From positions 42,761,348 through 42,825,347 of the forward strand of contig OX344764.1 in the NCBI GenBank assembly GCA_947034895.1: a stretch of 64,000 nucleotides of DNA. Reading direction: 5' to 3'. Both the position numbers and the translations under genes were made by a program. Each line of letters opens with the position of its first letter. Position 1 is the stretch's first letter. Below the pieces are notes generated by a model. That model ran no database searches. It was given only the letters and a program-made list of their open reading frames with translations, and was not told the DNA's origin. Source of the DNA: Rhytidiadelphus loreus (lineage: Eukaryota; Streptophyta; Bryopsida; Hypnales; Hylocomiaceae). Positions 23,115-46,130 of this stretch are shown piece by piece.

Positions 23115-23200
23115 CAGGGTTGTTCGCTGCGACAGCGCGACACCGCGACAGACAGACGTCGCGCGACGTCTAGTAGAGCCCGCGCGACGTCACGAAAAGT
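23115..23200. repeat. Giant hAT left terminus with CGCGACGTC motifs
   Basis: Terminus CAGGGTTGTTCGCTGCGAC followed by several CGCGAC words and GACGTCGCGCGACGTC near 23156. The right end (46015-46122) carries related CGCGACGTC words, forming subterminal motifs distinct from the ACCCGCAGTCGCC arrays. Confidence 0.85.
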
Positions 23201-23282
23201 CAAATTTACCTTTGACTTTACAGGAAATTACCCCCCTCCATGTGGATGCCACATGGCATCCACTTGGCAAACTGGAGGGTGC

Positions 23283-23575
23283 GTACGGGTAGGAGAGTGC
23301 GGGTAGGGGCGACTGCGGGTGGACGACTACAGGTGGGCGAGGGCGACTGCGGGTGGGCGACTGCGAATTTTTGAGGGAGACCGCGGGTGGGCGACTGCGG
23401 GTTTGGCAGGGAGACCGCGGGTTCAGGAAGTGTTCTTGGGTGGGCAACCGCGGGTGCGCAAAAGGTACCTAGACCCGGTGGTGGACCCGAAGTCGCCCAA
23501 TTTGGACCCGCTGTCGCCCTCTCGAGACCCGCTGTCGCCCACGTCGGACCCGCAGTCGCTGGATACACAGTTGCC
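23283..23575. repeat. Array A1 of ACCCGC(A/G)GTCGCC units (left end / RING gene promoter)
   Basis: About 12 units. Those at 23283-23465 read GGCGACTGCGGGT on the plus strand, so they point out of the element. Those at 23470-23560 read ACCCGCTGTCGCC, pointing toward the RING gene at 23776. Orientation flips near 23470. Confidence 0.9.
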
Positions 23576-23599
23576 CTATCCATACTCGCCCCCCTAGAC

Positions 23600-23775
23600 C
23601 AAAGTCACTCGCCCTATATAGCCAGTAGCCCATCATCATGCTATCACCTTCATTTTCCATTGAGGCTTTCTGTCTTGCAACCTTTGTTGGCTGCATGCGT
23701 GACCCTTTCGGATAATATATATACTATTTTTTGCTATCATTTGGTTCTTAGAATTTTGCGACGTCCGCAAATCTC
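23600..23775 (+). promoter_or_regulatory. Putative promoter of the RING cargo gene
   Basis: A TATA-like CTATATAGCC at about 23614-23623 lies between array A1 and the ATG at 23776, which would place transcription start roughly 130 bp upstream of the start codon. Inferred from position and sequence only. Confidence 0.5.
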
Positions 23776-25713
23776 ATGGCAACTAGAGGTAGCAGTGATG
23801 GGTCCCTTCCGGTTTTTTCCACTGTACGCACTCCTGGTGCAATTAAGAAGGCTGCCAAAGACAAGACTAGAAAAAGGAGGGGTAACATTCACAAGAAGCG
23901 ATGGCATGTGTTGAACAATGATAACCACCTAGCTTTCAAAGAGTGGAACGAGGAGCCAGAGCCTTGGAGTATGCAGGTGTGCGAAGACTACATTGAATGG
24001 TGTCACATCGGGAAGTTCTTTCCGGCATGGCGCCATCATCACAACCGACACAATAACAAGGCAAATTTGAAGTATTGTGAAAATCCAGCTTTCATACGAA
24101 GGTGTTTAGAATTGTGGCAGGTCCTCTACAAAACCCCTTTTGTAGATAGGAATGAGGCCCCTTTGTTCATTGCTAGAGGTGCCTATGCTGAGGTCGCCTT
24201 GAACAAACAAGTTGATTGGACCACGATCAAAGAAAGTACCTACGTGGAGCGTCCAGAAGTTGGAATAATTCCAAGAGGGGTTCTCAAATTTCCGGAGGGT
24301 GGACTTGGGCCTTTTCGAAGTGATCCACAAAACAAAGAAACTCAAGAGGTGGACACGGAAGAATCAGAAGAGGATAATGATTCAGATGGCACACGGATTC
24401 CTAAGCTTGTACGAGTGAAGGAGCAGATTATCACCCCCGTCCAAGTTCCAGTTCCAGTTCCAGATCCAAATGTTCAAGCCGCTTCATCATCACGGGGAAA
24501 GAAGATGAAACATCCTGCGAAGGTGCGACGGTCCACCACGAAAATTAGATTGGCATCAGCCTCAACCACAATTGCGACTCCAATCTTGCCACCACAAGAC
24601 GCCAGCAACGTCTTCGACTTTGCTTTAAGTGACGACTCACCCGTATGTGCCACAAGTCACATTCCCATTCCACAGTCTGAATCTGATGTTGTTCACAATG
24701 CGATGACATTGGCGAAGGCTCTCGACCTCTTGAAGACCAAGGATGCACAAATTGCAACCTTAGAAGGTGATGTGAAGAAATGGCGGTCTACATGTGAACA
24801 AAAAAATGCTCTCATTTCTCAACAATCCAAAGAATTACAAGGCCTTCGAGAAAAAGAGCGTCAGACTTTCACATTGTCGGACATGGACGAAACCTTTGTT
24901 GAGCAGGATCCACATCACTTGGACAAGCTTGTTGGGGACCTCACTAGCGATGTCATTCACCTTTCTCCCCCTGCCAAGCGTACGAAGCGTTCTTCAATTC
25001 TTCCAATGGCACCACTTCCGTTCGTCTCAAGAGACTCTAGCAATCCGCACGTTGATGGTTTGCAAGGGACTCAGGATTCACTTTCGTTTCCTGCCATTCC
25101 ACATCTACAATCATCAAAGGAACTTGATTTGGCTGAGGAAAATAGAATGCTTCGAGAGAAGTTGGCAGTGTTGGCAGCGACATACTATCATTGGAAGGTC
25201 GCGTGCATTCTCTCCGTGGATCGATCTCAACAAGTTGCGAAAGAGCTAGACAAAGTTTCGAAGAACTTTGTAGCAAATGCCCCTAAACGAGAGAATGGAT
25301 TGACATCATGGGCATTGATGGAGGACATGTTTCCGGATAACATGTCCATGCTTGACGTGGCGGAAAAAAATGTCATAGACTGGGCACAAAATGGTTGGGA
25401 CCATGGAAATCAGATGTCTAGTCACTTCAACGAAAAAGACCAAAGTCTATTGTGGCCAAAGCCAGCTCATTTCGTCTTGGATCATACCAAATGCCCCATA
25501 TGTCTAGAACAATTTGGGCCAGAAGGAGGATGGACACTTGGATCATGTACACATGTGTACCATCCTCAATGTCTCATCACTCAATGTCTGATTAGACGAC
25601 GATGTGTGATTTGTGCAGCACCATTCCATGATCGCTTGTATACCATGTTCAACTTGATGACTTACATGCCACCTTCTTGGGAACACAATAGAGACACGAC
25701 GGCAGAGACATGA
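23776..25713 (+). CDS. Cargo protein 1: WCHI/LFP N-terminal domain plus C-terminal RING finger
   Basis: A 645-codon ORF beginning MATRGSS. A basic N-terminus leads into a domain at about residues 41-152 shared with two other cargo genes: YIEWCHIGKFFP (WCHI at 75-78), RHNNKANLKYC, RCLELW and QVDWTTIK. The middle is acidic and Ser-rich with a basic patch (KKMKHPAKVRRS) and a heptad-like coiled-coil stretch around 305-355. Residues 573-613 form a RING-type zinc finger: CPIC, CTHVYH, then CVIC (Cys/His ligand spacing as in RING-H2-like E3 ligases). The family role would be ubiquitin ligase; the substrate is unknown. The gene lies just inside the left end of the giant hAT behind array A1. The frame continues after the TGA, so the original protein may have been longer. 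Confidence 0.8.
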   Translation: MATRGSSDGSLPVFSTVRTPGAIKKAAKDKTRKRRGNIHKKRWHVLNNDNHLAFKEWNEEPEPWSMQVCEDYIEWCHIGKFFPAWRHHHNRHNNKANLKYCENPAFIRRCLELWQVLYKTPFVDRNEAPLFIARGAYAEVALNKQVDWTTIKESTYVERPEVGIIPRGVLKFPEGGLGPFRSDPQNKETQEVDTEESEEDNDSDGTRIPKLVRVKEQIITPVQVPVPVPDPNVQAASSSRGKKMKHPAKVRRSTTKIRLASASTTIATPILPPQDASNVFDFALSDDSPVCATSHIPIPQSESDVVHNAMTLAKALDLLKTKDAQIATLEGDVKKWRSTCEQKNALISQQSKELQGLREKERQTFTLSDMDETFVEQDPHHLDKLVGDLTSDVIHLSPPAKRTKRSSILPMAPLPFVSRDSSNPHVDGLQGTQDSLSFPAIPHLQSSKELDLAEENRMLREKLAVLAATYYHWKVACILSVDRSQQVAKELDKVSKNFVANAPKRENGLTSWALMEDMFPDNMSMLDVAEKNVIDWAQNGWDHGNQMSSHFNEKDQSLLWPKPAHFVLDHTKCPICLEQFGPEGGWTLGSCTHVYHPQCLITQCLIRRRCVICAAPFHDRLYTMFNLMTYMPPSWEHNRDTTAET

Positions 25714-26276
25714 TTTTGGGGACGAGACTTGCTTTGGAGTTGGCGAGAAGGCCTACATGATCAAGAAATGGGAGCTGCTGCCTCACAATTGAATTGGGAA
25801 ACGGACCCGCGTGAAATTCTAAGAGTGGCATTCAACCTTATGGGAAAAGGAGCTCACAATGCAGGGAAGAGGGCGTTTTTTTTCAATGCCTTGGTGGATA
25901 TTTTGATAAGACATCCCAAACCTTCAAGTGGGGTGCTCATCCGGAAGGACACCGTTGGAATTTTGAAGGTGAACAAGGGGCTAATTGTGATGAAAATGCC
26001 ACTCCAGAAGACTTGAATAGTATGGCTTACCTCGACTCAACATACGGGCCTTATTATCAAAGCCAAGCACTCGATTATCTATTGGAGTTACACTCTCCGC
26101 AAACTAAAAGGACACTTGAAGCTCTCAAGAACTTCAATGTCTTGGAATCTATTTTAGAAACAGATGGACCTGCTTCAAGGACTCGTGCTAAGAAGAAACT
26201 CGTTGTTGGAGAGTCCAATGATTACGAACAAGGTGCAACGAGTGGTTCTCATAACAATCCAATGGACTTGAACTAA
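25714..26276 (+). pseudogene. Coding-like extension of the RING gene beyond its stop
   Basis: After the TGA at 25711-25713 the same frame stays open to 26016 and looks protein-coding (NWETDPREILRVAFNLMGKG). A T homopolymer near 25877-25884 marks an apparent 1-base frameshift. The shifted frame then reads FKWGAHPEGHRWNFEGEQG and continues to a stop at 26276, ending in a basic SRTRAKKK stretch. Either the RING protein once extended to here, or this is a second small gene that has decayed. Confidence 0.5.
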
Positions 26277-27947
26277 ATATTTCTATGAGATACTTACTTC
26301 AACGGTGGTTCTAGTTAATCGTAGTAGTATACAAGATGTAAGGCCCATAGTATAAGGGCCATAGTATATCCATACTCGCACAATGTAGTACTCTAGCAAA
26401 AGTTAGGGTTCAGATGTTGGCTTCTAAAACTATACCGCCTTGGCTGTGTATTGTACTACTATGCTTATGGACAACAACCTTCTATTGCTTTGGTTTTGAA
26501 GGTTTGGGCATACTTATACATTTGTAGCCTAAAATGTAATTGGTGAAATGCAAATACATTTGTTGTAATGCCTCGCACAATGATTCCATACACGGTCCCC
26601 ACAAAATTGCTATCTTCAAATCTTTTAATGAATTTTTTCCTTTTGGATTTTTTCTCATACAACATGTTTTGGTTTACATGGAAAAATTTGATTCATTCCA
26701 TTCAGATTTTTTATGAGAAAGTTATGGACCATTTTGTTTGGCGGGCAACTTGAGTCTACAGCTTCTTCTTTTAAAAGTTGCTTGTAGGATTTGTTTCTCC
26801 AGGCAATTTCTACAATCTAAAAAAAAATTAGGTCCGGTCACATAGTTAACTTCACTTGATAGCACACTCTCACCATTTTCATTTCATTTTAGAGATATTC
26901 ATTATTTAAATTTTACAACTACATCTTACCTACTTCTACTCAACAATTTCTTAAAGTATCCAAAATTGTTTTTGAAAATTGTTTTTTTCCCACACATAAC
27001 CATAGGATCTTACACCTTACTAGTATGAGAATGTGTGGAAAAAATTTCAGAATTTTTCATCTTACAGATTGCAAGATATCCGCATTTAGAGTGAAAAAAA
27101 CAATTTTTTCAGCACATTGCTGGACTACATTATTTGACTTTTAACATTTTTCACTTTAATTTCTTGCACTACAGAGTTTTGAGCTTTAAACAAATATAGT
27201 GGAGAATTGAGTTGAGAGTCTAAATAAAAAAAAGGTTTTCAAAAAAACTTAATTTTCATTCTTAAAAAACTTGTAGAATAGAAGTACATATGAGATTGAA
27301 TGAAAATCTATTTTCTTTCTAAGATAGAATTAAAATGCACTAATCCCCACGGTCAAATTGTTGTTGCAAGCAAACTAAACCATGTCAAACTTCTTTTCTT
27401 GAACAATTGCCAAAATTGCGTTCCTAAATTAATCTTACAAGGTATTTTTCCCACCAGAAGCTCTAATTGCCCAATAAACAAGATTGTCCATAACTTTCTC
27501 ATAAAATATCCAAATGAAATGAAAAAAAGCTTTCCGGATAGACAAAATTATAATCTATGAGGGAAAAAAACTTAGAAAAATAAATTCAAATGCTTGTCAC
27601 ATTTTTTTGCTGCCCATTCTCCCCTGCTTTGGAGTTTGGACTATATGGGCATAACTTTTGTTCCCGGGCACCGATTGGAAAAAAAGTTATATTACCACAA
27701 AGGTAATCGTTTTTTCTATCTTCAAATAAAGTTTCAAAAATTCAGTCCCAAATTTCAGCCCGTAGGTACCATCTCTGACATCCATTCTTGCAAAGACACC
27801 AAATTCATAGCCCTCGTATTCAAAATATAATAAAAACATATGTACATTTCAAAAACAAAGGTGTGAATTTCTTTATTCCATAAAACCTTTGGAAAATCAA
27901 AAATTGGAAGGCCAAATTGTTTTTTTCTACCACACTAGATCCAACCA
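26277..27947. other. AT-rich spacer between convergent cargo genes, with an imperfect inverted repeat
   Basis: No supportable gene. The segments at about 26690-26755 and 27460-27535 are imperfect reverse complements over about 70 bp, with core TTATGAGAAAGTTATGGA against TCCATAACTTTCTCATAA. Several short plus-strand ORFs here are low complexity. Confidence 0.5.
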
Positions 27948-29447
27948 CTAAGCATTTTTTTCACTATTCACAAAGTCACTTTCTTTGGGCTCCGGTCTCA
28001 TTCTTTGAAGTTCCGCACAGGTGGCACCTATGCCTTCATAGGCCCACTTGCGCCATTCCTTAAAATAAAGGATGTGGCGCTCCAAGTCCAATATGCCCTT
28101 GTGCAACAACTCTTGTTTTTTCTCCAGTAGCTTCACCAAATAAAAAAGCGTTGCTCTTTCTTCTGTATTGCTACCATAATCCGGAGCTAAAGCCAAGATG
28201 CCCTCTTTTTTGGCTTCTTTTAAGGCATCATCATAATATTCCATCTCTAGCTCACGTATTTGAAGATTCAAGCTTCTCCTTTCGCTTTGATGGGACCATT
28301 TATCACGTTGCAAAAGATCAAGTTTATTTTGAAGCACCGCTAAATCATCGGAAATGTGTGCTCGACCGTCTTTGATCTTCTTGAAATAATTTACTCTACT
28401 TTTGTTTAACTTAGAGTAAATCTTCTCATTTTCAGCAACGGCGTTTTCAGTCGCCTCTAACTCCTTCTTCAACCCATCCACAACAGTTGGATTCACTGGA
28501 AGATGTTGTACCTTCTCTTTCAAATTCATAAGATCCGCTACTGTTGAAGTCAAAGCTGCTCGTGCACTTTCGATCTTAGTGCCCAACATCTCCAAATTGT
28601 CTTCCGAATCATTGTCACTACTTCCGCTAGACCCAATGTTTGCACCAGAACGGTCCACATTGATCGGTACATGAACATCTTCGCTTTGTTTTTGAATCTT
28701 GGACAATGATTGCGGCTCCTCAAGCTTCCTCTTGCCCTTCTTGTCAACTTGAATGTCTTCAGCCGCCTCTTGTTTTTCTTTGCCAATGTCTTCGTCGTCA
28801 CTCTCAAAAGAATATCCATCGTATTCGTGAGTGTGCTCATCTGAGCTAGAAGTTGAAGACCATTGAACTTGGTCATCACCAACAACCAACTTGCTAGGCT
28901 TTGCCTCTAAAAGCTTCTGATTTGCTTGAAGAAGTCCTTCTTCATCCAGCACTATCGATCTGTCTGGGCGGTCACCGATAGGAAGCTCCTTCAAGGTTGT
29001 CCAATCTACCTTTTTCTTCAATTGAACTTCAACGTACACCATTTGCACAAGATAGAAAGAGAAGTTGTCATTTTGATAAGGCTGGGACTCCAAATAGAGT
29101 TGCTGCCATACCTCCAAACACCTTCGCTGGAAGACAACACTCTTGCAGTAAGCCAAATTTGCCTTATTAGACTTCACGTGCAAAGGGTGTCGCCAAAACG
29201 GGAACAACTTGTTGATGTGGCACCAATCCACATATTTGTTTACAGTTTCATATGTCCAAGGCTCTAGTTCTACTTCCCATCCCAAAAAGGCCTTCATCTT
29301 TGGATGCAACAAGATGGGTACACGCTTCTTGCGAGGTTTGCCGCTCCTTTTAGGATCCTTGTCACGAACCGCCTTTTTGTTGAGCCGAAGTCGGTATCTT
29401 GACAAACCGTGTGGCGGTTGAGAGTCCTCGCCCTCCATAACGATCAC
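27948..29447 (-). CDS. Cargo protein 2: WCHI/LFP domain plus coiled coils
   Basis: An intact 499-codon ORF. After a basic N-terminus (KKAVRDKDPKRSGKPRKKR), residues about 43-153 match the N-terminal domain of the RING cargo gene: PWTYETVNKYVDWCHINKLF (WCHI also at 75-78), KSNKANLAYC, RCLEVWQQLY and KKVDWTTLKEL. An acidic Ser-rich linker follows (about 190-300), then long coiled-coil-like segments (about 300-470), with no RING. The gene is read leftward, convergent with the RING gene. Upstream lie the shared cargo promoter block (29661-29702) and array A2. Function unknown; the shared domain is probably an interaction or DNA-contacting module, but nothing in the sequence proves that. Confidence 0.8.
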   Translation of the reverse strand: MIVMEGEDSQPPHGLSRYRLRLNKKAVRDKDPKRSGKPRKKRVPILLHPKMKAFLGWEVELEPWTYETVNKYVDWCHINKLFPFWRHPLHVKSNKANLAYCKSVVFQRRCLEVWQQLYLESQPYQNDNFSFYLVQMVYVEVQLKKKVDWTTLKELPIGDRPDRSIVLDEEGLLQANQKLLEAKPSKLVVGDDQVQWSSTSSSDEHTHEYDGYSFESDDEDIGKEKQEAAEDIQVDKKGKRKLEEPQSLSKIQKQSEDVHVPINVDRSGANIGSSGSSDNDSEDNLEMLGTKIESARAALTSTVADLMNLKEKVQHLPVNPTVVDGLKKELEATENAVAENEKIYSKLNKSRVNYFKKIKDGRAHISDDLAVLQNKLDLLQRDKWSHQSERRSLNLQIRELEMEYYDDALKEAKKEGILALAPDYGSNTEERATLFYLVKLLEKKQELLHKGILDLERHILYFKEWRKWAYEGIGATCAELQRMRPEPKESDFVNSEKNA

Positions 29448-29654
29448 TTCGTCTCAAAAGTAGCCAACTAAGTACTATGCGGTTTAGGGTTGCAAGCCTA
29501 AACCGTAGGTGTAAAAAATGCTAAACGTAATCCTATCACATTTAACATTTACAAAAATACAATGTTCTCGTGAAACACCCTATGTCATCCAAGCGTGAAT
29601 AAAATGAGCCGTGCAAAGGGACAAAAATCCCCCCCCACAACTCAAACCCCTAGC

Positions 29655-29705
29655 TTCTGTGCACGCATTCAGCCACGTCAGTAGGTGAAAGACAGTGCGC
29701 AGAAT
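29655..29705 (-). promoter_or_regulatory. Shared cargo promoter block P2
   Basis: GCACGCATTCAGCCAC, then GTAGGTGAAAG, then CAGTGCGCA, about 210-260 bp upstream of the start of cargo gene 2. The same three words in the same order occur upstream of the kinase gene, the 36-kb gene and cargo gene 3. Confidence 0.7.
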
Positions 29706-29719
29706 GCCAGGGAAAATTT

Positions 29720-30121
29720 AATGGCGACTGCGGGTGGAGGAGAACTCTGATGTACCTGAGGTCGCCCCTAGGGCGCGTGCGGGTCCTAAGGTGGGGCGAG
29801 TACGGGTCAGCTCAGTGTTCCAGGGCGACCGCGGGTCCGGAAGTGGGGCGACTGCGGGTCAGCGCAAGTGCTCCAAGGCGACCGCGGATCCTAGAGTGGG
29901 GCGACTGCGGGTCTGGACAGGTGCTCCAACGCGACCGCGGGTCGAAGGAGCCCAAGCGAGTGGGCGACCGCGGGTCCAGGGCGACTACGGGTCCTAGGCG
30001 ACCGCGGGTCCAGGACGACAACGGGTCCACTTTGCGAAGGCGACCGCGGGTCCTGGGCGACAGCGAGTCCTGGGCGACAGCGGGTCCTGGACGACCTCGG
30101 GTCCCAGGCGACCGCGGGTCC
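29720..30121 (-). repeat. Array A2 of ACCCGC(A/G)GTCGCC units
   Basis: About 15 units, nearly all GGCGACYGCGGGTCC on the plus strand, so ACCCGCRGTCGCC on the strand of the gene it precedes (cargo gene 2). Spacing is about 17-18 bp in the distal half (29963-30121). One unit at 29753 is inverted, near the gene-side border. Confidence 0.9.
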
Positions 30122-30124
30122 ATC

Positions 30125-31884: not shown

Positions 31885-33477
31885 TTACAAAGATGAGTCT
31901 CGGAACACCAATTCGGGGGGCATCATGGACCATGGTGGAGACATAAGGGAATTTGTGATCTCTATACACGTTGGTCTCTTCTTTGGGTCAGTGTTCACGA
32001 GTTCACGCAACTTCATTCCAAAGTACATTGATCCCTCGCGGTTCTTGAACAAATCCTTGTCCCAATCGTCCATATCACCAATTCTCATCCATTCGGTCAA
32101 CTTCCCAATAGAATACGAGTCTGACTGTTGCGTATATTTATACCGTTGTTGCATGATCAGTATGCTTGTATCGGAATTTGGAGGTCCATATGCATAAAAC
32201 AACTCCGGGGCAATCCACCAACGACCTTCTCGGTATTGATCCTTCTCGGCCTCAGATGGCTTTCCAAAATGTGAAGGCGCGTTTTCGTCAAAACAACTTG
32301 ATATTCCAAAATCACAAATTCCAATGTTGATTATGTCGTTTGAATAATCCAGAAAATGCAACATGATGTTCATGGGAGACAAGTCATTGTGTAGCACGCG
32401 GCACTTGTGCATGAGATTTGTCACATATACTAAAGCCCATGCCAACTTTGCCTTGTGCCTTCGGAAGAGACCAAGTTCTTTTTGTTTCTCTTCAGGAAGT
32501 CTTGTGGCTTTTTGCATTTCATGCCAGTCAATGGTTGGTGATACAGAACGATCTAAATGCCTCAACTCATTCAAATGGCCCCCATTCCACCACAAAGTGT
32601 ACGCTTCATTCGTGCGAGAATGAATGGCAAAAAACTTAATGATGCCAGGGTGGTTCAAGGGGCATGCAAGGGCCTCCATGGATCGTTGCGCTCTCCCCTC
32701 GCGCGGGTTTATTGCCTTGGATACTTTCCCAGCAAAAGCGATGTAGCTTGGAATTGTATCCATTCCTTCAATGCGTACCTTACGCACTTTTGCATACCCC
32801 CCTTCACGTTCAAAAGCACTAAGGGGCACCACTTTCGCCGTATCGGGGATCCACGTGATACACAATCCACCATCTCGTGCAAATGCTGCCTGCACCGCTG
32901 CATTTTTCCACTTAAAACCCCTTGCCGAGCCTCTTGCCAATTTCTTCACTGCGCTGGACCACCACTCCATTTTTTGGCGGAATGCCTTGATGTCTTCTGA
33001 TTCCTCTACTATCGGAAGAAACGGTCGATGTTCCTCCATCAATTTCTTGGTATTGAACATCACCGCTTTCAATGTGTTATCAAGCCATTCAAATAGTCTC
33101 GAAGAATATGTCAAGTCAATGTCTGCGAAATCATCGGATCCCTTTAGCTTGGTTAAAATCCGTGCTTGTAAATCGTTTGGCAAGGCCACACTACCAGTTG
33201 TAGGACACCTCAAATAGCTTGCCTCCAAGAATTGTACACTTTTCCCTGCGTACCACTGGAGACACGCTTCGTATGCATATCGGGTATAACTCGGGGGAGG
33301 ATAGTTGGAGTCCTTGTCATGTGCTGACTTCTGCTTCTTGCCCTTCCGTCGCTCTTGACTCCCTCCTTCTTCGTTTTCATTTATAGCTATCGGAACCTCG
33401 AAAAAAATTGGATCATCAAGGTCCAGATCCCATAAAGACTTTCTCCTTGTAGTGTTGCCTTCATGTGGAAAAGCCAT
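31885..33477 (-). CDS. Cargo protein kinase
   Basis: An intact 530-codon ORF with a protein kinase domain in the C-terminal half: glycine-loop-like GGYAKV (226-231), candidate ATP-binding Lys in AFAGKVSK (Lys251), catalytic loop HNDLSPMN (363-370, with N in place of the R of HRD), DFG (389-391) and APE within WIAPELFY (423-425). The N-terminal about 190 residues are not recognised; they start basic/acidic and contain helical WEWW-type segments. All key residues for phosphotransfer are present, so activity is plausible; non-RD loop chemistry is expected. It is encoded inside the giant hAT, read leftward, with the shared promoter block and array A3 immediately upstream. No introns are apparent. 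Substrate unknown. Confidence 0.85.
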   Translation of the reverse strand: MAFPHEGNTTRRKSLWDLDLDDPIFFEVPIAINENEEGGSQERRKGKKQKSAHDKDSNYPPPSYTRYAYEACLQWYAGKSVQFLEASYLRCPTTGSVALPNDLQARILTKLKGSDDFADIDLTYSSRLFEWLDNTLKAVMFNTKKLMEEHRPFLPIVEESEDIKAFRQKMEWWSSAVKKLARGSARGFKWKNAAVQAAFARDGGLCITWIPDTAKVVPLSAFEREGGYAKVRKVRIEGMDTIPSYIAFAGKVSKAINPREGRAQRSMEALACPLNHPGIIKFFAIHSRTNEAYTLWWNGGHLNELRHLDRSVSPTIDWHEMQKATRLPEEKQKELGLFRRHKAKLAWALVYVTNLMHKCRVLHNDLSPMNIMLHFLDYSNDIINIGICDFGISSCFDENAPSHFGKPSEAEKDQYREGRWWIAPELFYAYGPPNSDTSILIMQQRYKYTQQSDSYSIGKLTEWMRIGDMDDWDKDLFKNREGSMYFGMKLRELVNTDPKKRPTCIEITNSLMSPPWSMMPPELVFRDSSL

Positions 33478-33564
33478 GTTGTACTTAGGAACAATTCAAA
33501 ACCGTAGTTCAAAATTCGTAGATTGAAAGGGTAAAAATTCCCCCCCCAATTGAAACCCCAGCCC

Positions 33565-33612
33565 ACGGGCACGCATCCAGCCACCTGAAGGTAGGTGAAA
33601 GACAGTGCGCAA
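33565..33612 (-). promoter_or_regulatory. Shared cargo promoter block P3
   Basis: GCACGCATCCAGCCAC, GTAGGTGAAAG, CAGTGCGCA: nearly identical to the block before cargo gene 2, including a C-run on its gene side (33540-33547; compare 29629-29636). Confidence 0.7.
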
Positions 33613-33656
33613 GGCTAAAGTAAGGTGAGAATTGAAAGTGGGGCTAACGCTTAAGT

Positions 33657-34048
33657 ACCCGAAGTCGCCTCAGGGCGCGTGCGTTTGGGTGACTGCGGGT
33701 CTGAGGAGGGGCGACTGCGGGTCTGAAGACAGCGGGAATGGGCGACTGCACATTTTTGGAGCGCTGAAATGGGCGACTGCGCATCAAGGGCGACTGCGGA
33801 TCGTGGGCGACCGTGGGTACCAACTAAACCATCCCGAAACTTGCACACGCGGTCGCCCACAAAGAAGACTCTTCGACCCGCAGTCGCCCCCTACGCGCAG
33901 TCGCCCCACTGGAGATTGAATTTGCATTTTCCAGAAAATTAGTCTCCCTCCTTGACCCGCAGTCGCCCCCTACGCGCAATCGCCCTGATTCAAATGTGTT
34001 TTTTGCTTCGTCGATGACCCGCGGTCGCCCCTGACCCGAGGTTGCCCT
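33657..34048. repeat. Array A3 of ACCCGC(A/G)GTCGCC units
   Basis: The units nearest the kinase gene (33690-33820) read ACCCGCAGTCGCC on the kinase strand. The distal units (33850-34048) have the opposite orientation. One inverted unit sits at the gene-side border (33657). Confidence 0.85.
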
Positions 34049-34227
34049 AAACCAACAACCAATCTGACCCAACACTAATTAGCATCTGCAGCATATTCTA
34101 ATTGATTTTTCCTTATCTCACATCCAAAATTGGTAATAAATGTTAGGTGTCAGTTCATATCAAAGACATAGCAAGGCAATGGAAGAATTATTCTCACAAT
34201 GTGAAGGATTTCCCAAACCCTAAACCC

Positions 34228-34809: not shown

Positions 34810-34947
34810 CCTAAACCCTAGACCCTAGACCTTGGAAAACAATAATACAACTTCTATCTAGAATCAAATCCTTAAACCTACATAAAATACTTACACATCC
34901 TACACGAGATGTAGTGTTTTAGACCTAAAACAAAATCATGTCTTTTT

Positions 34948-35279
34948 TGTCTTGTTGAATTTGTAAACAAAATGGAGGAAGTAACATATGATTAAAGGGA
35001 ATTAGAAACAATAAGGGAGAGGTCCCAAAAAAAACACCATCTCATAAATCATGCCCAAATAAATCTAATTACACCTCCCCACTATTAGAATGTACATAAA
35101 ACTTTCATTCGGAACTTCTTGCCAAAGGAGTGTTGGAGAGCTAATGCAAAACCTAGGATTTGTTTGTCTTGTTGAATTTGTAAACAAAATGAAGGAAGTA
35201 ACATATGATTAAAGGGTATTAGAAACAATAAGGGAGAGGGGTCCCAAAAAAAAAATTAATCTTGTGAAACATGCCCATA
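34948..35279. repeat. Two direct copies of an about 110-bp block
   Basis: 34948-35055 and 35166-35279 both start GTCTTGTTGAATTTGTAAAC and end CATGCCCA, differing by a few substitutions. Spacing is 218 bp. Non-coding. Confidence 0.85.
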
Positions 35280-35830
35280 CCCGCAGTCGCCCAAAGCGCA
35301 GTCGCCCTAGAACCCCAGGTCTGATTTTGGAAGTGATCTGGGGACCCGCAGTCACCCCCTACGCGCAGTCGCCCCCTACGCGCAGTCGCCCTGATGGAAG
35401 GGGGGAGATTGCATTTTCGAAATTTTTGGTGTCTCCCACCTTGACCCGCAGTCGCCTCCTACGCGCAGTCGCCCTGATAGAGGGCGGAAAAGTATTTGGT
35501 GTCTCCCTCCCCTTTCATATGGGCGACTGCGCGTAGGGGGCGACTGCGGGTCAAGGAGTTTGCATTTTCTCCTTGACCTGTAGTCGCCCCCTATGCGCAG
35601 TCGCCCTGATGGAGGGGGGATTTTGAAATGTGTTTCCCCCTCGAGGACCCGAGGTCGCCCTGACCCGCGGTCGCCCTGATCCGAGGTCGCCCTCACCCGA
35701 GGTCGCCCTTGAAAGACGCGAGGGATCCTTGGACCGGACCCGCGGTCGCCCCACGCGCAGTCGCCCCATGCGCTGTCGCCCTAGTATCCGTGTTAGGGTT
35801 AGCGCATGCGCCCCTGGCGACCGCGGGTAT
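35278..35830. repeat. Array A4 of ACCCGC(A/G)GTCGCC units
   Basis: About 20 units. Most (35278-35500 and 35575-35795) read ACCCGCAGTCGCC or ACGCGCAGTCGCC on the plus strand, toward the gene at 36.0 kb. A pair at 35521-35556 and the border unit at 35815 are inverted. Confidence 0.9.
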
Positions 35831-35867
35831 TTCATGGGCTGTTCCAGCCTGTGGTCCATAATTTTCA

Positions 35868-35915
35868 TAACTGCGCCTTGTAGTTCACCTACCTTGTAGT
35901 GGCTGAATGTGGGCC
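35868..35915 (+). promoter_or_regulatory. Shared cargo promoter block P4
   Basis: The reverse complement contains CCCACATTCAGCCAC, GTAGGTGAA and GCGCAG: the same order as P2, P3 and P5, in the matching orientation relative to its gene. Confidence 0.6.
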
Positions 35916-36023
35916 CAATGTTGTGGAGGTCTCGTGGTTTTTTTGGTTTCCCACAAACAGCCAACAATACAGCAGACACTTCTTGTATACTTCAATGAAC
36001 CCAAAATCTTTTCCATTAGTTTA

Positions 36024-38605: not shown

Positions 38606-38960
38606 TGTACCTACAGTTGCCCACCCGCGGTCGCCCCACCCGCGGTCGCCCCACCCGCGGTCGCCCCACCCGCGGTCGCCCTACCCGCGGTCGCCCCACT
38701 GTAGGGGTCCAGAAATTACTCTGTGGTGCCCCACACGCGGTCGCCCATCCCCAGTAGCCCCAGACCCGCAGTCGCCCTACCCGCAGTCGCCCTACCCGCA
38801 GTCGCGCAGGACCCCAGTACTTCTATAGCCATCGACCCGCGGTCGCCCATCCCCAGTAGCCCCAGACCCACAGTCGCCCTACCCGCAGTCGCCCTACCCG
38901 CGGTCGCTCTCAGACCTGCACGCGCCCCTTCCCGCACTCGCCCCAGGGCGATTGCGGATT
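38606..38960 (+). repeat. Array A5 of ACCCGC(A/G)GTCGCC units
   Basis: Starts with an exact 15-bp tandem (ACCCGCGGTCGCCCC, about 5-6 copies, 38624-38700), then looser units to 38935, all pointing toward cargo gene 3. A single inverted unit (GGCGATTGCGGATT) closes the gene-side border. Confidence 0.92.
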
Positions 38961-39003
38961 AATTAGCTGTCTCCCCACCCGACTTCGCCACTTTCCCTTT
39001 TTG

Positions 39004-39185
39004 CTGCGTACTACCTTTCACCTACTTTACAGTGGCTGATTGCGTGCCCGGGAGCTTGGGTTTTGAGTTTCACTTACATGCGGCTCATGTTCTTGATTTT
39101 ACTCCATCACTCACTAATCGCTAGATAATACTTTGCGGTTTAGGGTTAAGTTTAGCTAAATAATACTTTGCGGTTTAGGGTTAAG
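39004..39185 (+). promoter_or_regulatory. Shared cargo promoter block P5 and duplicated telo-box segment
   Basis: The reverse complement of 39004-39052 contains GCACGCAATCAGCCAC, GTAGGTGAAAG and TACGCAG. At 39126-39186 an ACTTTGCGGTTTAGGGTTAAG word occurs twice; the same GCGGTTTAGGGTT word occurs at 29480 before cargo gene 2. Confidence 0.65.
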
Positions 39186-39222
39186 TTTAGATTCCTTGCC
39201 CCAAATCTCAAGAGCATCTCCA

Positions 39223-40731
39223 ATGGCGGACCACAAGAAGAAGACCAAGGCAAAAGGAGCCATGCACCTTAGGCAACGACGCATCCTTTTGGACCCAGCG
39301 TGTGTGGCCTACCGAGGTTGGGATTGAATTACGGGCCACTGGACCGCTAAGACTTGTAAGTCCTTCGTGGGGTGGTGCCACATCGACAAGTTATTCCCCT
39401 ATCATCGGCACTACACGAATCGGCGCAACAATACGGCCAATTTGCATCCATGCCGTAATGATGCATTTGTGCAATGTTGTATCGAAATTTATCGATACTT
39501 GTATGGCACATATTCAGTGCCCAGGAGCGAAGTCCCGTATTTCATATGTGCAATGGTGTATGCGGAACTCATTTTGTTTCGAAGCGTGGATTGGAGTTCA
39601 ATCAAGGGAGTGAAGCATGCTCGCCTTCCACCGACAAAAGACATTCCAAGGGCGGCTCTATCTGCCAATCTACGTGAAGGGCTAGGCCAGAAGAAAAACT
39701 TGAAGGAGGGAGTGCCCGATGAGCAGTTTCATTGGACGTCATCTGATTCATCTTCGGGAGAGGAAGACAACCTTGGTGAAGACCCTCCAATGCAGCCCCA
39801 AAACATGGCGATGGTGGCTTCTACTTCACAAAATTTACCTCCCCCGAGAATGGAAGAAGAGGGTGAACCAGCTAGGCAACCACAAAATCTTGATATTTTG
39901 CCTCTTGCTATGGTGAATCCGATTACAGTCCCTCGCACTGAAGAAGACGAAGTTTTGCAGTATGTGCTTGCATGCATGCAAGAAGCAGAAGATGATGTTT
40001 TTTGGACAGAGATGGAAACAGAAGAAGATGTGAAGCCTTCTTTGTTCCAATTGGATTGTGTTGATGACATGTACCGAAGTGAGGAATTTGTTGAAGATGG
40101 AACTGTCCCTGACACAGTAATGTTGGACACCAAAGTTGTTTACAAAGCTCAACTCAAGAAGCTTCTAAATGAGTTGGATGAAAAGCATCTAGAATGTGAG
40201 AAGCTTCGCAATCAAGAAACGCAAACTTTGAGTGGAGATATTGTGAATAGCTTATGTGCTGAACTTGAAAGTCGGCAAGTTCTTTTGTCAACGCAAATAA
40301 CAAAGATTTTAGACTTGGAAGCATTTTACCTTAGATTCTCTTCTCGGCATGCTGGAGGATCTAGTTCTTCTAGCAATGAGTTTGCAAAAGAACGGCTTGC
40401 CAAAATTATGGAAGCATGCAAGCTGGAGGAAGATCAGATAGACTTGGAGAAGCGAGGGGTGGAAGAAGCACGATCAAGATTAAATTCCTTGAAAGCATTA
40501 AAGGACAAAGCCCCCCTTGACCGTGTTGCAGAAATGTGTGGTTGGAAAGACGTGGCTACTAAACAAGCATTGTCTCTTACGGAAGTAGTTGACTTGAAAA
40601 AGAAGCTTGGGGTTTCTTTGTCATTGGATCCAAAATTGGAAGAACATCGGGATGCACTGAAGGCGCTTTTGAAGTTCCAAAAATCATACAAGCAATTTTG
40701 GTTGGAAAAGAAGTTGGGGAAGGATGACTGA
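39223..40731 (+). pseudogene. Cargo protein 3: WCHI/LFP domain plus coiled coils, one nonsense codon
   Basis: Start MADHKKKTKAKG at 39223; in-frame TGA at 39325-39327; the frame then stays open to 40731. The shared N-terminal domain is clear: VGWCHIDKLFPYHRHYTNRR (WCHI at residues 51-54), NTANLHPC, AFVQCCIEIYRYLY and SVDWSSIKG. Acidic linker, then coiled-coil-like C-terminal half (LDEKHLECEKLRNQETQTL and later heptads), as in cargo gene 2. If the TGA is not read through, an internal start downstream would lose the N-terminal basic tail but keep the domain only partly. It lies behind array A5 and block P5, next to the transposase gene in the same orientation. Function unknown. Confidence 0.7.
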
Positions 40732-41308
40732 TACCTTAGGAATTTGCAGTTGGAAGGTAGGAAAGTCTTGTATGAGATGGAACGTGAGGCTCATGACGCA
40801 AAGAAAAGGCCAAAATGGATGTTGAATGATTTTCATTTTTAGCACATTTTTGAGGACTATGTATATTCCATCTTATGTATATATAAAAGGATATTATCCA
40901 TTTTGAACATTCCAATGCAAGCACATTGAATTCTATGTAGTTCCTTGACAAGAGTACATAAATATAGATATGAATTTTTGGTTATTTATGTTTGCAATGT
41001 TGTGAATACTTGAATATTCTAGGAATTTTGGCAGGAAAATGACCTTGGGAGTTCGGACTTTCGGAATTAAAAGAGAATTAAAAAAAAAAGGAAAATTCAA
41101 AACTTGTCGGATTGGAAAAGAACTTGTTATTGAAGTTCAGAGCAATTGTCACGGCTAGGGTGAATTGACCTACTCATTGCCACTCCAGGGCAAACACTAG
41201 AATTTTTTATTTTCAAGGCTTATTTTTTTAGTGGAAATTCTGAATTCATAGTTTCAATTATAGGCCCCAAATTACCCCAGGGGATGTAAGAATTATCCAA
41301 ACAAATGG

Positions 41309-41575
41309 CAGTCGCCCGTTCCTGGACCCGCAGTCGCCCATTACTGGACCCGCAGTCGCCCATTACTAGACCCGCAGTCGCCCGTTCCTGACCCGCAGTC
41401 GCCTGTTTCTGGACCTGCAGTCGCCCATTATTGGACCCGTGGTGCCCACTTCTGGACCCGCAGTCGCCCTCTTCTGGACCCGCTGTCGCCCAATCTTGGA
41501 CCCGCAGTCGCCCATCACCTGACTGATTTCAGGTTTTTGGACCCGCATTCTCTCATGGGGCGACCGCGGGTCCAA
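41309..41575 (+). repeat. Array A6 of ACCCGC(A/G)GTCGCC units (transposase promoter)
   Basis: About 10 units GGACCCGCAGTCGCC spaced about 20-25 bp, pointing toward the transposase gene, with one inverted unit (GGCGACCGCGGGTCC) at 41558 on the gene side. Confidence 0.92.
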
Positions 41576-41582
41576 GGAGTTT

Positions 41583-41597
41583 TCTTGTATAAAGTTC
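41583..41597 (+). promoter_or_regulatory. Putative TATA box of the hAT transposase gene
   Basis: CTTGTATAAAG at about 41584-41594, just downstream of array A6 and about 230 bp before the ATG at 41823. Confidence 0.5.
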
Positions 41598-41822
41598 TAG
41601 GGGTACCCCTTGTTTTATCACCTTGGCTCCGTTGATAAAACTCTTGTCTTGGACCTTCGAAAGAGGCTTCATGCGGACGTTTAACTTCTTCGGAGGGCAA
41701 CAACCGTGTTTAGAAAGGTTTACAAGACCACTCTAAGCGGGTTGCTTTGTCATTACATCTTCCATAGTATTAGTGTGATTATTGTAGTCATTTTCTTTGA
41801 AGACCCAGTGTTGATCTACTAC

Positions 41823-44800
41823 ATGGCTGGACAAGGTGTTGGGAGGGGGGGGACCATGAATGATACGCGGAGGTCCACAAAGGATTGGGACCCTTGGCTA
41901 GTACCGTGTACCCCAATTGATAATTCCCCCCATGCTCGAAAATGCGTGTTTTGTGGGTGGAGCAAAGCATTTGTACGAAAGAGAGCATTGATTCACTTTG
42001 GCTATGGCGGCTCGACTACATCGGAGCGTTGTAAGGAGATTCCTAGAATTGTACGAGAAAAGTTTCGGACTAACGAGGGGCAAGTTCCAAGGTCCATGAG
42101 TTACAAAGAGATGTATGATGCACCGGCTAGATATGATGCACCAGTTAATGTTGCAGAGTCTATTGTCGCACTTGCGTTGGATGTCGAAGAAGAAGGGTCT
42201 CTCAATCCCTTTGAATCAAATGCAAGACCAAATCCTACGCCTGATTCAATAGATTCTACTGGAACAACGCTTGAGAGAAGGAGGAACATGCCATCTGTTT
42301 CTCGGCAAAGAAGCATGGATGAATCATTACAGACAGGCCGCAGACAAGAGTTGGATAGGTTGTGGGCTTCTTTCTTTTACGAGGCGAACATTTCATTTAA
42401 TGTTGTGCGCCACCTGGCCTTCGTGAATGCTGTTAAACAAACTGCAGCAGCTGGATTCGTATACCAACCGCCACCGTATAATGCGATTCACACGAAAATG
42501 ATAGATGTTAAGAAGGCATCGGTTGAAGCCATGGTCTCGGAGTGGACGAGGGTTTCAATAAGTCAGTATGGAGCGACAATTTGTTCAGATGGTTGGTCCG
42601 ATACTAATTCGCGGCCATTACTAAATATGATGTTGGTGTGTCCCGCCGGGGATGTCTTTTTGGGATCAGTGGATAGTACTGGGGAAAAGAAGGATATATC
42701 TTACACAACTGAGACGATGGCACGATACATTGAGGAAGTTGGGCCTACCAACGTTGTGCAATTGTGTACGGACAATGCTGCAGTCATGACGGGGGCGATG
42801 GCAAGGTTGGAAGAAAGGTACCCTCACATTTATAGGCAGGGTTGTGCGGCACACATTTTGGACTTACTCTTAGAAGATTGGGGAAAGGATTAGAGAGTAA
42901 AGGAGTTGGTAAAAAAGGCTTCATCAATTGTGAAGTTCATCAAGAAATACCAACATACTTTGGCGTTGTTTCGGAGATTTTCACCAAACAAAGTGTTGAG
43001 ACTTCCAAGCAAAACACGTTTTGCCACAAATTTCTTGATGATTGATCGTTTGGTAGACTGCAAGCAAGCAGTGCACAACATGACACTGGATGAGACATAC
43101 ATGACGTTCGAGTTGAGTTTGCAAAACCGCAGAAATGGACATTTCATTATGGGCAAGGCCAAACTTGCAAGGCAAGATATCCGTTCAGAAGAGTTCTGGG
43201 TTCAGTGCGACAATTTCCTCCATATGGTAGAGCCCGTGCTGCTTTGTCTTCGTCATTTTGATGGAAAAGTCCCGGCAATGCCGAAAGCTTTAGTAATGAT
43301 GACAGCCTTGAAGGAGCACATTTATTCTCTCAAGAATGCTCCATTTTTCCTTGATCCAGTGGTGGCAACACGATATGAGAAACAATTTGATGCTCGCTGG
43401 AAGTTGATGATTACTGACCTACACTATGCGGGGGCACTACTAAATCCATACTTGAGTGACGTGGAGGCTATTCATAACAATGGCTACGCGAAGGGAGCTT
43501 TGAATCGAGTCATACGAAAACTGAGCGTACCATTGAACGTGTCAGTGGTGGAAGCAATGCAGGAGCTAACTCAATTTGAAGAGAAAACAGGTGCATTCGA
43601 TCCTTTACATGAGGCTCCCGATATCATTGAATGTCAATTATTGCCTCATCAATGGTGGAATCGTGTGGAGGGCAATGCTCTTCCAAAAATTGCAAAGCGA
43701 ATTCTCGGTTTGACGTGCTCTGCATCTTCGTGTAAAAGGAATTGGAGCATGTATTCCTTTGTGCACAATAAAGTGCGAAACCGCTTGGCCACGACAAAGG
43801 CAGAGACATTGGTGTATATCTACGCGAACAACAAACTTGAACGTCAAAAACGTGGACACAACCCAGCCATTTTTTACGACCAGATGCTTGCAGATGGAGA
43901 CGATGAGGACGAGCGTGATGGGCCTTTGTCTTCAGGGGAAGAAGACGACATTGTTCCTGATTTTATGAGAGAACGCGAGAACCGCAGGGATGAAGAGGAT
44001 CGGTTGCGCAACAATCCTTGGAATGCAATGGTTAGGCCGCCACATAGTCCTCCACGACCAATATATGGGAATACATTTGATTTTAGTGACGATGGGTATG
44101 TTTCTCCGGGAAATTCACCTGTACGCAGTCCACCGCAGAACGTCGTGCACAATATGGATGCAATTTCGCCGACACATGCATCACTGAGGAGGGAAAGCAC
44201 CCCCGACAACAACGACGAAGGTGTACCTATTCCCATGGCACCCGTAGAGGAAGAAGCTAGATCTCCAATATCAACTAGTTCGCCTCCAAATATGGCCCGC
44301 AATTTAAGAAGCAATGCACAAGTTCCAATGAGAAGTGAACATGAAGAAGAGGCCATCGAAGTCAATGAAGTTGTACACGAGGGAATACCAAATCCCGTTG
44401 TATTGAACGCATCTACCTTCGGAACAACTGTTACTACAGATGATGATGATGATGTGCCATTGGCATATGTTATGAATCGAAGTCGGAATGTGCCGTTGAA
44501 TCCAGAGACGACTACAAATGTGGCAACAGTGAGGAGGTCTATCCCAACCCTTCCAACAAGGCCACCGGTGCGTGGAGGTGCTCTACGGACGATTGATGAA
44601 GAAGTTCACGGCTCAGCTCCACAACCCACTCAACCTTCATCCGTGTCTGGCCCTGGCGAATCATCATTAGGAATCCAGGGGCGCAACAGTAGAGGCCAGA
44701 AAAGGCGTATTAGGAGGGTTGACGAGAGGGGACCTCGAAACCCTAAACGACCCACTCAAATTGTCCAACGGTGTACCATTGGAGCGGGATGTTCCACCCA

Positions 44801-45098
44801 GAATGTTGGACAATCAAGTAGAGGAGGGCGACACCCTGCATCCAACATGGATGGAACTACGGATGCGTTGAGGCTCACGAAACGACTTGTGCAAACTGAA
44901 GGGTTCAGTGGTGTAGATACAGAAGTTCGAAATCTGAACTCAGAGGTAGAGCGTGAGGTACAAATCGAAGTAGTAACAAGGGAAAATGATGAAATCGAAA
45001 GCTCGGGCGACAACAGGAGCAACGAAGAGTCTTACGAAGATACAGACCCTAATGCTGATGAGGTGCCGAGCGATTCCACATTCACGCCTGGTGACTAG
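41823..45098 (+). pseudogene. hAT transposase of the giant element, interrupted by one TAG
   Basis: A single long frame from ATG 41823 (MAGQGVGRGG) to 45098, broken only by TAG at 42891-42893. Order: BED-like zinc finger (CVFC, then His and Cys in IHFGYGGSTTSERC), DUF659-type core with the acidic residues in CSDGWSDTNSRP and LCTDNAAV, CAAHILDLLLEDWGK, then after the stop VKKASSIVKFIKK, RFATNFLMIDRLV, and the hAT C-terminal dimerisation block CSASSCKRNWSMYSFVHNKV. About 400 further residues are acidic and disordered. The second hAT (61817 onward) has Trp at the stop position (LEDWGKQDW), so TGG to TAG is the likely lesion. Needed for excision and insertion of the element; this copy probably depends on another source of transposase. 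Confidence 0.9.
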
Positions 45099-45117
45099 AG
45101 TACTAGAGAAGTAGACA

Positions 45118-45162
45118 ATAATTATAGTTATAGTTATAGTTATAATTATAGTTATAAGGTTT
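45118..45162. repeat. TTATAG microsatellite
   Basis: Six or seven near-perfect copies of TTATAG/AATTATAG just after the transposase stop codon. The rest of 45165-45625 is non-coding 3' sequence. Confidence 0.85.
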
Positions 45163-45626
45163 TAGCTTATATGTTAGGTAGCAAATCTTTGTAGTTCAAG
45201 CTTTGAGCCTTCATCCTGATGTGTAAGGATTTTGTAATGCTTCATCAAGCATATGAGCATATTAGAGTGAGGGACAAATTACCGGTTTTAAAATATATGT
45301 TGAGTTCTAATTGGTAGGCAGTTAGGTGATGACTGCAACGTGGTTATAAAAGTGCAATGCAAGTATGGCTACATTTGAAGTCCGCCTCAAAGCAATATCG
45401 ATGACTAATTAATATCATCGTTGTTGACATTATTATTGTGGCCTTATACTGGGTGAATTTTTGGGATTAGAGAAGTTTGTCCAATTTACATTTCATGGGC
45501 TCTATTATTTGCACTTGTAAATTGTAAACCCCAATATAACGTAGCACCTAATTCTGCGCTTATAAAACACCTATGTGACGTGTTACTTCAAAGACTGAAT
45601 ATGCCAAACTGAAATCCTAAACTGAA

Positions 45627-45928
45627 CCTGCGGTCGCCCTGGAACACGCGGTCGCTGTCTGCTGCTCCGACCCGCAGTCGGACCCGCGGTCGCCCTCAGT
45701 ACCCGAAGCCGCGGTCGCCCCTTCACCCGAAGTCGCCCTAAAGCCCCTGACCCGCAGTCGCCTTCAAGCCTAAACCCGCAGTCACCTCTATTTTTTCCAC
45801 CCGCGGTCGCCCCTTCACCCGAAGTCGCCCTAGCGCCCCAGACCTGCAGTCGCCCCTTCACCCGTAGTCGCCTCAATTTTTCCACCCGAGGTCGCCCAAG
45901 GCAGACCTGCACGCGCCCACACCCGCAG
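45627..45928 (+). repeat. Array A7 of ACCCGC(A/G)GTCGCC units (right end)
   Basis: About 14 units in one orientation, all pointing outward to the right terminus about 190 bp away, with no gene beyond them inside the element. Mirror image of the outward-pointing part of A1, as expected for subterminal inverted arrays. Confidence 0.9.
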
Positions 45929-46014
45929 TCGCCTACGCTGGCTGTCCACGTCAGTTCTGAAGCCCTGCCACGTAGGCAAAATCTATTTACTATGGGGTAA
46001 AATTTTTTACCCCT

Positions 46015-46122
46015 CCGCGACGCGATGTCAAGTAAACTCGACACTTCGTGACACGCGACACGCGACGTCAGACGTCATACACGACGCCTAAACCCAAAAA
46101 TATGTCAGACAAGACAATCCTG
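46015..46122. repeat. Giant hAT right terminus
   Basis: Ends ...CAAGACAATCCTG; the reverse complement CAGGATTGTCTTGTCTGAC pairs with the left terminus. CGCGACGTC-type words at 46017-46085 mirror those of the left end. Confidence 0.88.
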
Positions 46123-46130
46123 GTCGTGAA
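46123..46130. repeat. Right 8-bp target-site duplication (GTCGTGAA)
   Basis: Exact copy of 23107-23114. Confidence 0.95.

Follow-up and report, generated by a model that had tools for sequence, protein, structure and literature searches.

Transposons of the hAT superfamily related to Ac, in which the transposase combines a DUF659 domain with a hAT dimerisation region, are usually a few kilobases long; they end in short terminal inverted repeats (TIRs) that begin CAGGG and are flanked by 8-bp target-site duplications, in which the Ac group favours T at position 2 and A at position 7. An element that shares these characters, but that is 23 kb long and has five further genes and arrays of a short motif before every gene, lies in a stretch of 64,000 nucleotides from Rhytidiadelphus loreus (contig OX344764.1 of assembly GCA_947034895.1), which is referred to here as the window and numbered from its first base. 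Another hAT-like element with several whole genes, in addition to a transposase gene, between its TIRs is ToxhAT, described in the accessible portions of its report as a composite of 14.3 kb that has a type II transposase nested in it, TIRs altered by repeat-induced point mutation in two of three species and no target-site duplications found around it (PMC6737239). The statement of an earlier note on this DNA that known hAT elements carry at most captured fragments was thus too strong. Unlike ToxhAT, the element described here has hundreds of ends in its genome, duplications around all 20 units that were chosen for reading of the borders, and a constant gene set in all five full copies.

Among the CACTA transposons, too, there are elements that exceed 20 kb, that have a short motif repeated in their subterminal regions or that give rise to deletion derivatives mobilised in trans. 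In Spm/En, a second protein, TNPA, recognises the subterminal motif arrays and also regulates the element, and Tgmt*, a CACTA element of 20.5 kb, has one gene with 24 exons that spans 14.6 kb, according to the available part of that account (PMC2613891). CACTA elements differ in the transposase, in their CACTA ends and in a 3-bp duplication, and the same part of that source does not mention arrays in front of each of six genes (PMC2613891). Starships, Polintons/Mavericks, Teratorn and Helitrons are likewise very long and multigenic but employ different enzymes. A review that counts elements above 20 kb as large, and that in its available main text does not use the word hAT, reports that the efficiency of cut-and-paste transposition drops above about 6 kb of cargo (PMC6431247).

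The earlier note had proposed that positions 23115 to 46122 form one 23,008-bp hAT unit with a perfect 8-bp duplication, and both the borders and the duplication, GTCGTGAA, proved exact. The unit begins with CAGGGTTGTTCG at 23115 and ends with GACAATCCTG, the last base being 46122. It is inserted in a TNP2 transposase gene on the minus strand, and when the element and one copy of the duplication are removed in a script, the flanks join in a single 629-codon TNP2 frame, in agreement with the note; the evidence for an empty site consists solely of this restored frame. All defining features with a clear outcome place the element among the hATs, a known superfamily, whereas its size, its gene set and its regulon-like layout are new to us, and a literature search that mostly did not cover subscription papers found no account of any hAT with such a size and content. 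We consider it likely that the element represents a family of giant hAT transposons that are autonomous when complete and carry a fixed, element-specific set of six genes under one motif which the element itself recognises. The first half of this reading, that is, movement as a unit, mobilisation of short forms in trans, a fixed and constrained gene set and shared arrays, we hold with far more confidence than the whole; control through the motif and the functions of the accessory genes are what we infer from it. The borders and genes are as follows.

23115..46122, plus strand: whole element, 23,008 bp; the same kind of unit is found at many other sites of the genome
23107..23114: target-site duplication, left copy, GTCGTGAA, 8 bp, exact
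46123..46130: target-site duplication, right copy, GTCGTGAA, 8 bp, exact
23115..23123, plus strand: left terminal inverted repeat, CAGGGTTGT
46114..46122, minus strand: right terminal inverted repeat, CAGGATTGT in the window copy
23776..25713, plus strand: WCHI-1, with WCHI domain, coiled coil and RING-H2-like finger; frame closed early in the window copy
27948..29438, minus strand: WCHI-2, with WCHI domain and coiled-coil-like part, no RING match
31885..33477, minus strand: protein kinase, 530 amino acids
36020..37345, plus strand: spliced gene, tentatively about six short exons, seen as short open pieces at about 36.0–37.35 kb
39224..40731, plus strand: WCHI-3; frame interrupted near its start in the window copy
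41823..45098, plus strand: hAT transposase, DUF659 and dimerisation region; in-frame stop in the window copy

The source assembly comprises 407 Mb in 489 contigs, five of which are 50.7–94.4 Mb long, with the window on a 75-Mb contig (C4). Copies of the element are spread widely through it. Left-end and right-end 28-mers occur, with up to two mismatches, 430 and 609 times genome-wide, and their reversed controls not at all. Counts based on genes, which are lower bounds as only top matches were listed, gave at least 68 matches to the WCHI-1 protein at 98–100% identity (2633 candidates), at least 81 to the kinase at 97–100% (1358 candidates) and at least 61 to the C-terminal half of the transposase at 97–100% (1426 candidates). 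Placed on a common layout with 40 matches to each of the two ends, these fall into at least 183 loci, at least 79 of them with two or more markers, and at least 147 loci have at least one of the three genes. A listed kinase lies at the expected place in 33 of the 68 WCHI-1 loci, against about 0.07 by chance.

Borders were read at 20 loci chosen for having a marker near each end, a choice that makes them uninformative on the fraction of copies that are complete. Both ends and an 8-bp duplication with at most one mismatch were found at all 20, exact at 19, while left and right flanks paired crosswise between loci matched equally well in 2 of 380 combinations. The unit measures 21,920–23,114 bp at 19 of these loci and 26,624 bp at the remaining one; in the duplication, position 2 is T at 16 loci and position 7 is A at 14. 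Left ends begin CAGGG at 19 loci and CAAGG at one, with CAGGGTTGT at 18; the right terminal inverted repeat is CAGGGTTGT, and the last ten bases of the right end are GACAACCCTG, at every one. Since the units have their own duplications at different sites, it is the unit itself that inserts: a unit of 22–23 kb moves by hAT-type insertion, with short TIRs and 8-bp duplications, and the genome contains at least dozens of full units.

Among the first six copies to be fetched, three have both ends and a duplication with no more than one mismatch, one has an eroded right end, and the right end of the other two is absent from the fetched stretch. The window copy, the three copies with duplications and the one with the eroded end make up the five full copies, and all five carry WCHI-1, WCHI-2, the kinase, the spliced gene (judged by three exons), WCHI-3 and the transposase in identical order. 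They differ pairwise by 1.3–1.9%, which indicates that the spread was recent. The expectation of the earlier note that further copies would share the ends and the gene set, with different duplications around them, is therefore confirmed by 20 of 20 loci for the ends and five of five copies for the genes. Misassembly, which the note had named as a result that would speak against its proposal, is rejected in view of the duplications and the many independent copies. The gene content also stands as it was described there, with the qualification that the transposase, WCHI-1 and WCHI-3 frames of this particular copy are damaged.

The same ends are also found on shorter elements. Sixty left ends (on contig C1 and part of C2; 58 exact and two others) were paired with the nearest listed exact right end, mismatched right ends being left out, so that the long distances and the misses are partly artefacts. 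The distances were 5.1–6.6 kb for 14, 10.9–11.7 kb for four, 13.6 and 16.4 kb for two, 22.4–23.1 kb for 11 and 23.7–50.6 kb for 16; for the other 13 no exact right end was listed within 60 kb. One element of 5,483 bp, with the exact duplication GTTCAAAG, corresponds to the large unit minus two internal blocks and retains the spliced gene, arrays and both ends. Another, L068 (G000:C1:82197978-82204615; 6,638 bp, exact duplication ATCTGGAC), resembles the large unit in its outer 205 and 241 bp at 88–90% identity and otherwise matches only stretches that are about 65% identical to a noncoding part of it. The interior of L068 differs from that of the large unit and contains repeats. As these short elements have moved without a transposase gene, the ends are enough in cis, with the proteins able to work in trans; short and long forms together are the usual pattern of autonomous and non-autonomous elements.

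The unit is also marked by the 14-bp motif ACCCGCRGTCGCCC. At up to one mismatch it occurs 74 times in the window, every time within the element, where 0.02 would be expected, and at up to two mismatches 96 times inside the element and never outside. The sites are grouped in arrays. Those of the two subterminal regions point outward, and each of the six genes is preceded by others that mostly run in its sense, a pattern that is kept in the five full copies with 92–96 sites each. Both ends of the 5.5-kb element bear arrays; in the 6.6-kb element the arrays occupy the right end and the interior, and just one site lies near the left end. In addition, a two-part core box, TTCACCTAC followed by GTGGCTG..TG, lies between the array and the coding region in four accessory genes out of five; its spacing is identical in three of them (three matches in the window, none in shuffled sequence) and shorter in WCHI-2. 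WCHI-1 has only the second half. Arrays and core boxes are located as follows.

23307..23455, minus strand: left subterminal array of ACCCGCRGTCGCCC, outward
23485..23540, plus strand: array upstream of WCHI-1, in the sense of the gene
29722..30119, minus strand: array upstream of WCHI-2, in the sense of the gene
33687..33818, minus strand: array upstream of the kinase, in the sense of the gene
33845..34030 and 35279..35828, plus strand: arrays upstream of the spliced gene, mostly in its sense
38623..38909, plus strand: array upstream of WCHI-3, in the sense of the gene
41326..41571, plus strand: array upstream of the transposase, 8 of 9 matches in the sense of the gene
45626..45934, plus strand: right subterminal array, outward
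29659..29689, minus strand: core box of WCHI-2, spacing shorter than in the other three
33578..33599, minus strand: core box of the kinase
35884..35905, plus strand: core box of the spliced gene
39017..39038, plus strand: core box of WCHI-3

The transposase matches DUF659 (PF04937, E = 1.4e-32) and, at 20.7 bits, just below the cut-off of 21.4, the hAT dimerisation region (PF05699); many of its relatives carry both. In the window copy an in-frame stop separates the two domains, and the expected acidic catalytic position is K, whereas the four other full copies have E. A motif search matched 97 of 112 relatives, in some rows at another place, and 79 of these 97 have E as well; we take this E, as in Hermes, to be the catalytic residue. 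A C-x2-C...H...C spacing can be recognised by eye near 41,930–42,040, with no Pfam match to the BED finger. Relatives that cover at least 80% of the query reach 61, 56, 49, 47, 42 and 40% identity; the relatives with a named organism, a separate set, are from Physcomitrium (39%), Ceratodon (39 and 32%) and Riccia (26–29%), the 39% of the named mosses extending over about half of the query.

Three of the accessory proteins have in common a new domain with the signature W...WCHI...FP, N-terminal in WCHI-1. From stop to stop, the WCHI-1 frame has 653 codons in the window and 843 in three of the four other full copies, and WCHI-3 has 467 against 556, again in three of four. A profile of 21 WCHI-1 rows matched RING fingers in the PDB (best E = 5.8e-8), and Pfam RING families are recognised in 17 of the 21 rows at E ≤ 0.1; the Pfam scan gave no RING match for WCHI-2 or WCHI-3. 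The kinase (PF00069, E = 3e-11) is divergent, with K251, D365, N370 and D389 kept in all 12 aligned rows (11 of the 63 hits plus the window copy, relatives at 69–34% identity). Its best listed hits are 69, 61, 59, 52 and 49% identical and those of WCHI-1 70, 69, 68, 65, 60 and 46–42%; no hit carries an organism name among the 20 listed for WCHI-1 (8000 candidates scored) or the 63 for the kinase (listed to E 1e-20). The falling identities among the transposase, kinase and WCHI-1 hits suggest that the three genes may have been inherited together. The spliced gene has a match to Prok-E2_E below threshold (E = 0.012, 15.8 bits against 25) and one PDB match (E = 0.55); an E2-like role beside a RING protein would be notable if real, but with a match of this rank it is unproven.

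Whether the accessory genes are retained by selection was assessed by comparing their variants with a neutral expectation built from noncoding changes with CpG context, one of the four noncoding stretches being covered by the window copy alone. Twelve copies were used for WCHI-1 (five of them taken from a ranking by protein score and so biased towards conserved copies), seven for WCHI-2 and for the kinase, six for WCHI-3 and for the N-terminal part of the transposase and five for its C-terminal part; the spliced gene was left out. Variants present in at least two copies are constrained: 14 synonymous and 13 nonsynonymous in the accessory genes (omega 0.38, p = 0.01), six and three in the transposase (omega 0.21, p = 0.023), and 20 and 16 in all genes (omega 0.33, p = 0.0008). 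Variants of single copies are near neutral (omega 0.84, p = 0.1 for the accessory genes; 1.07, p = 0.67 for the transposase), as expected for dead copies, and differ from the shared ones with p = 0.037 for the accessory genes and 0.003 for all. The shared variants arose in lines that were still moving, and their constraint implies that the accessory genes are kept by selection as a group, which is the main evidence against passive cargo. Pairwise ratios, with row TPN_early left out, are 0.28 for WCHI-1, 0.41 for WCHI-2, 0.45 for the kinase, 0.70 for WCHI-3 and 0.56 and 0.64 for the two transposase parts, but they mix decay after insertion with selection, and the test on shared variants is the better one.

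Several observations weigh against an autonomous element with a self-regulated gene set. Taken separately, the shared-variant tests are significant only for WCHI-1 (p = 0.017), while WCHI-2, WCHI-3, the kinase and each half of the transposase, with 4–7 variants each, are not significant singly. The transposase promoter has no core box. An open full-length transposase frame is present in none of the five full copies. The WCHI domain gave no convincing Pfam or PDB match with the profile of 21 rows, and DNA binding by it is a guess. Finally, as L068 demonstrates, the cis requirement hardly goes beyond the ends, so that the accessory genes need not be linked to the sequence that moves.

The state of the transposase bears on the view that, although the gene belongs to the unit, most copies owe their movement to transposase supplied in trans, either from a small number of active copies or from a smaller hAT of another kind. 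The gene is broken in the window copy and open in full length in none of the five full copies, many of the listed copies have stops or shortened frames, and short elements without a transposase have moved; yet 16 of the 61 listed matches have open frames of 1137–1138 codons without a stop in the match, and the shared variants of the transposase are constrained, so that we regard this view as unlikely, if deserving of serious attention. The architecture of the unit could also have been produced by smaller hATs with shared subterminal repeats that became nested and were then copied as a block, given that the internal arrays resemble the subterminal ones and that elements of 5–7 kb with the same ends exist. 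Nested insertion and segmental duplication are rejected, however, by the separate duplications around the 20 chosen units, and the single 5.5-kb element that was read is the large unit minus two blocks; we find this origin scarcely credible. A viral carrier was also considered, and scans of viral_contigs gave no relative. A fungal host was considered too, and was rejected in view of the relatives of the transposase and of the contig with rbcL and accD described below.

The remaining alternatives concern the origin and use of the accessory genes. Capture of coding DNA is known for plant DNA transposons, as far as the accessible text of that study goes (PMC8903248), and the near-neutral variants private to single copies would suit host genes that hAT ends have enclosed and carry along, in the manner of Pack-TYPE elements, with no role for the element. 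Passive capture nevertheless appears improbable to us, as the genes are whole, each lies behind the element's own array, their shared variants are constrained, and the same architecture recurs in a second lineage, L071, described below; in addition, relatives of the kinase and of WCHI-1 reach 69–70% identity without any organism-named hit among those listed, no search having been aimed at host paralogues. Pack-TYPE membership was rejected likewise, the unit having a transposase gene and whole genes, again with no search aimed at host source genes. In the opposite scenario, the kinase, RING and WCHI proteins would give the host a trait for which the element is kept, as with Starship cargo. The constraint on the accessory genes as a group and the intact catalytic residues of the kinase are compatible with this idea, but the gene load is constant rather than variable, and the hundreds of ends and many decayed copies (at least one internal stop in 30 of the 68 listed WCHI-1 matches) are parasite-like; we give it very little credence. 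A DUF3435 tyrosine recombinase is a feature of Starships, and the Pfam scan of six open reading frames of the element gave no match to it, nor to the protein-primed PolB or retroviral-type integrase of Polintons/Mavericks. The earlier note had spoken of a cargo-carrying giant hAT: the giant hAT stands, but cargo in the Starship style, a changing load of host genes, is a poor fit, because the same genes are present in all five full copies, each behind an array of the element itself, and none of the 20 WCHI-1 and 63 kinase hits listed is organism-named. CACTA membership was rejected as well, the ends being CAGGG, the duplication 8 bp and the TNP2 sequence part of the interrupted target. The accessory genes look like parts of the element.

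Returning to the giant hAT with a gene set of its own, a working model can be outlined. An element-encoded protein, either a WCHI protein or the putative N-terminal finger of the transposase, would bind the array motif; binding at the ends would build the transposition complex, and binding at the promoters would turn all of the genes on or off together, much as TNPA does with the subterminal repeats of Spm/En. Targets of the RING protein and the kinase might be the transposase or host proteins of chromatin, the cell cycle or repair, and such action could be what lets a 23-kb element still amplify. If this regulon exists, it would to our knowledge be the first case of a cut-and-paste eukaryotic transposon that runs a multi-gene programme. 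That at least dozens of full units with six fixed genes are present shows that the size limit of cut-and-paste transposition can be beaten, and the accessory proteins under one element-wide motif point to how. The element also adds a WCHI domain family and a kinase family without organism-named hits among those listed, and it offers a testable case of co-evolution between the repeat motif of a transposon and its reader.

A second lineage bears on the last point. L071 (CADCWO010000051.1) is a contig of 4,906 bp that was assigned, most likely through a binning error, to a cyanobacterial metagenome-assembled genome; it looks like a eukaryotic transposon and encodes a relative of WCHI-1 (38% identity over residues 21–642). 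The motif ACCCGCRGTCGCCC of the window element is absent from it; the gene is preceded instead by a different motif, GACGTCCGCGCCCC, in 11 sense copies when up to three mismatches are allowed (mean of 0.3 in 20 shuffles of the contig), together with both halves of the core box, CTCACCTAC and GTGGCTTATTGC, at wider spacing. Downstream follow two more copies of GACGTCCGCGCCCC and then GACAACCCTG, the right-end sequence of the giant element, while the contig stops short of the left end. The same layout with a different motif is what co-evolution of reader and repeat would give, and such co-evolution has been discussed for TNPA-like proteins and the subterminal repeats of CACTA elements, in the part of that source available (PMC2613891). 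It is conceivable, although we lean slightly towards doubt, that streptophytes and perhaps other eukaryotes harbour a giant-hAT lineage with a self-contained regulon. In it, a single array motif, present at the ends and at every promoter, would be read by a WCHI protein that changes in step with the motif from lineage to lineage, and the kinase and RING proteins would work in transposition or in escape from silencing. One relative of the transposase (P0022) is labelled as coming from a metagenome-assembled genome of Bacilli, a label that is likewise probably a binning error.

The window contains other mobile DNA around the unit. CACTA/TNP2 pieces lie at 20514–22666 and 46105–47655 on the minus strand, with DUF4216, DUF4218 and Transposase_21 and with Transpos_assoc below its cut-off; the two sides look like one plant-type CACTA/TNP2 element split by the hAT. 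Adjoining it, at 17356–19533 on the minus strand, is a mobile element that encodes a DUF7869 protein of 725 amino acids, which we take to be a KDZ-type transposase. Farther to the right, the plus strand contains, at 54734–55648 and 56222–57652, a match to Transposase_24 below cut-off and a protein with decapeptide repeats. A scan of the window with Rfam gave nothing at gathering score. Elsewhere in the assembly, contig C489 carries a form I rbcL followed by accD and, judging by sequence and gene order, is presumably the plastid of a streptophyte green plant. Further rbcL matches lie on contigs C394 and C74, of which C394 reads as bacterial-type, and these two contigs are probably bacterial contamination of the sample.

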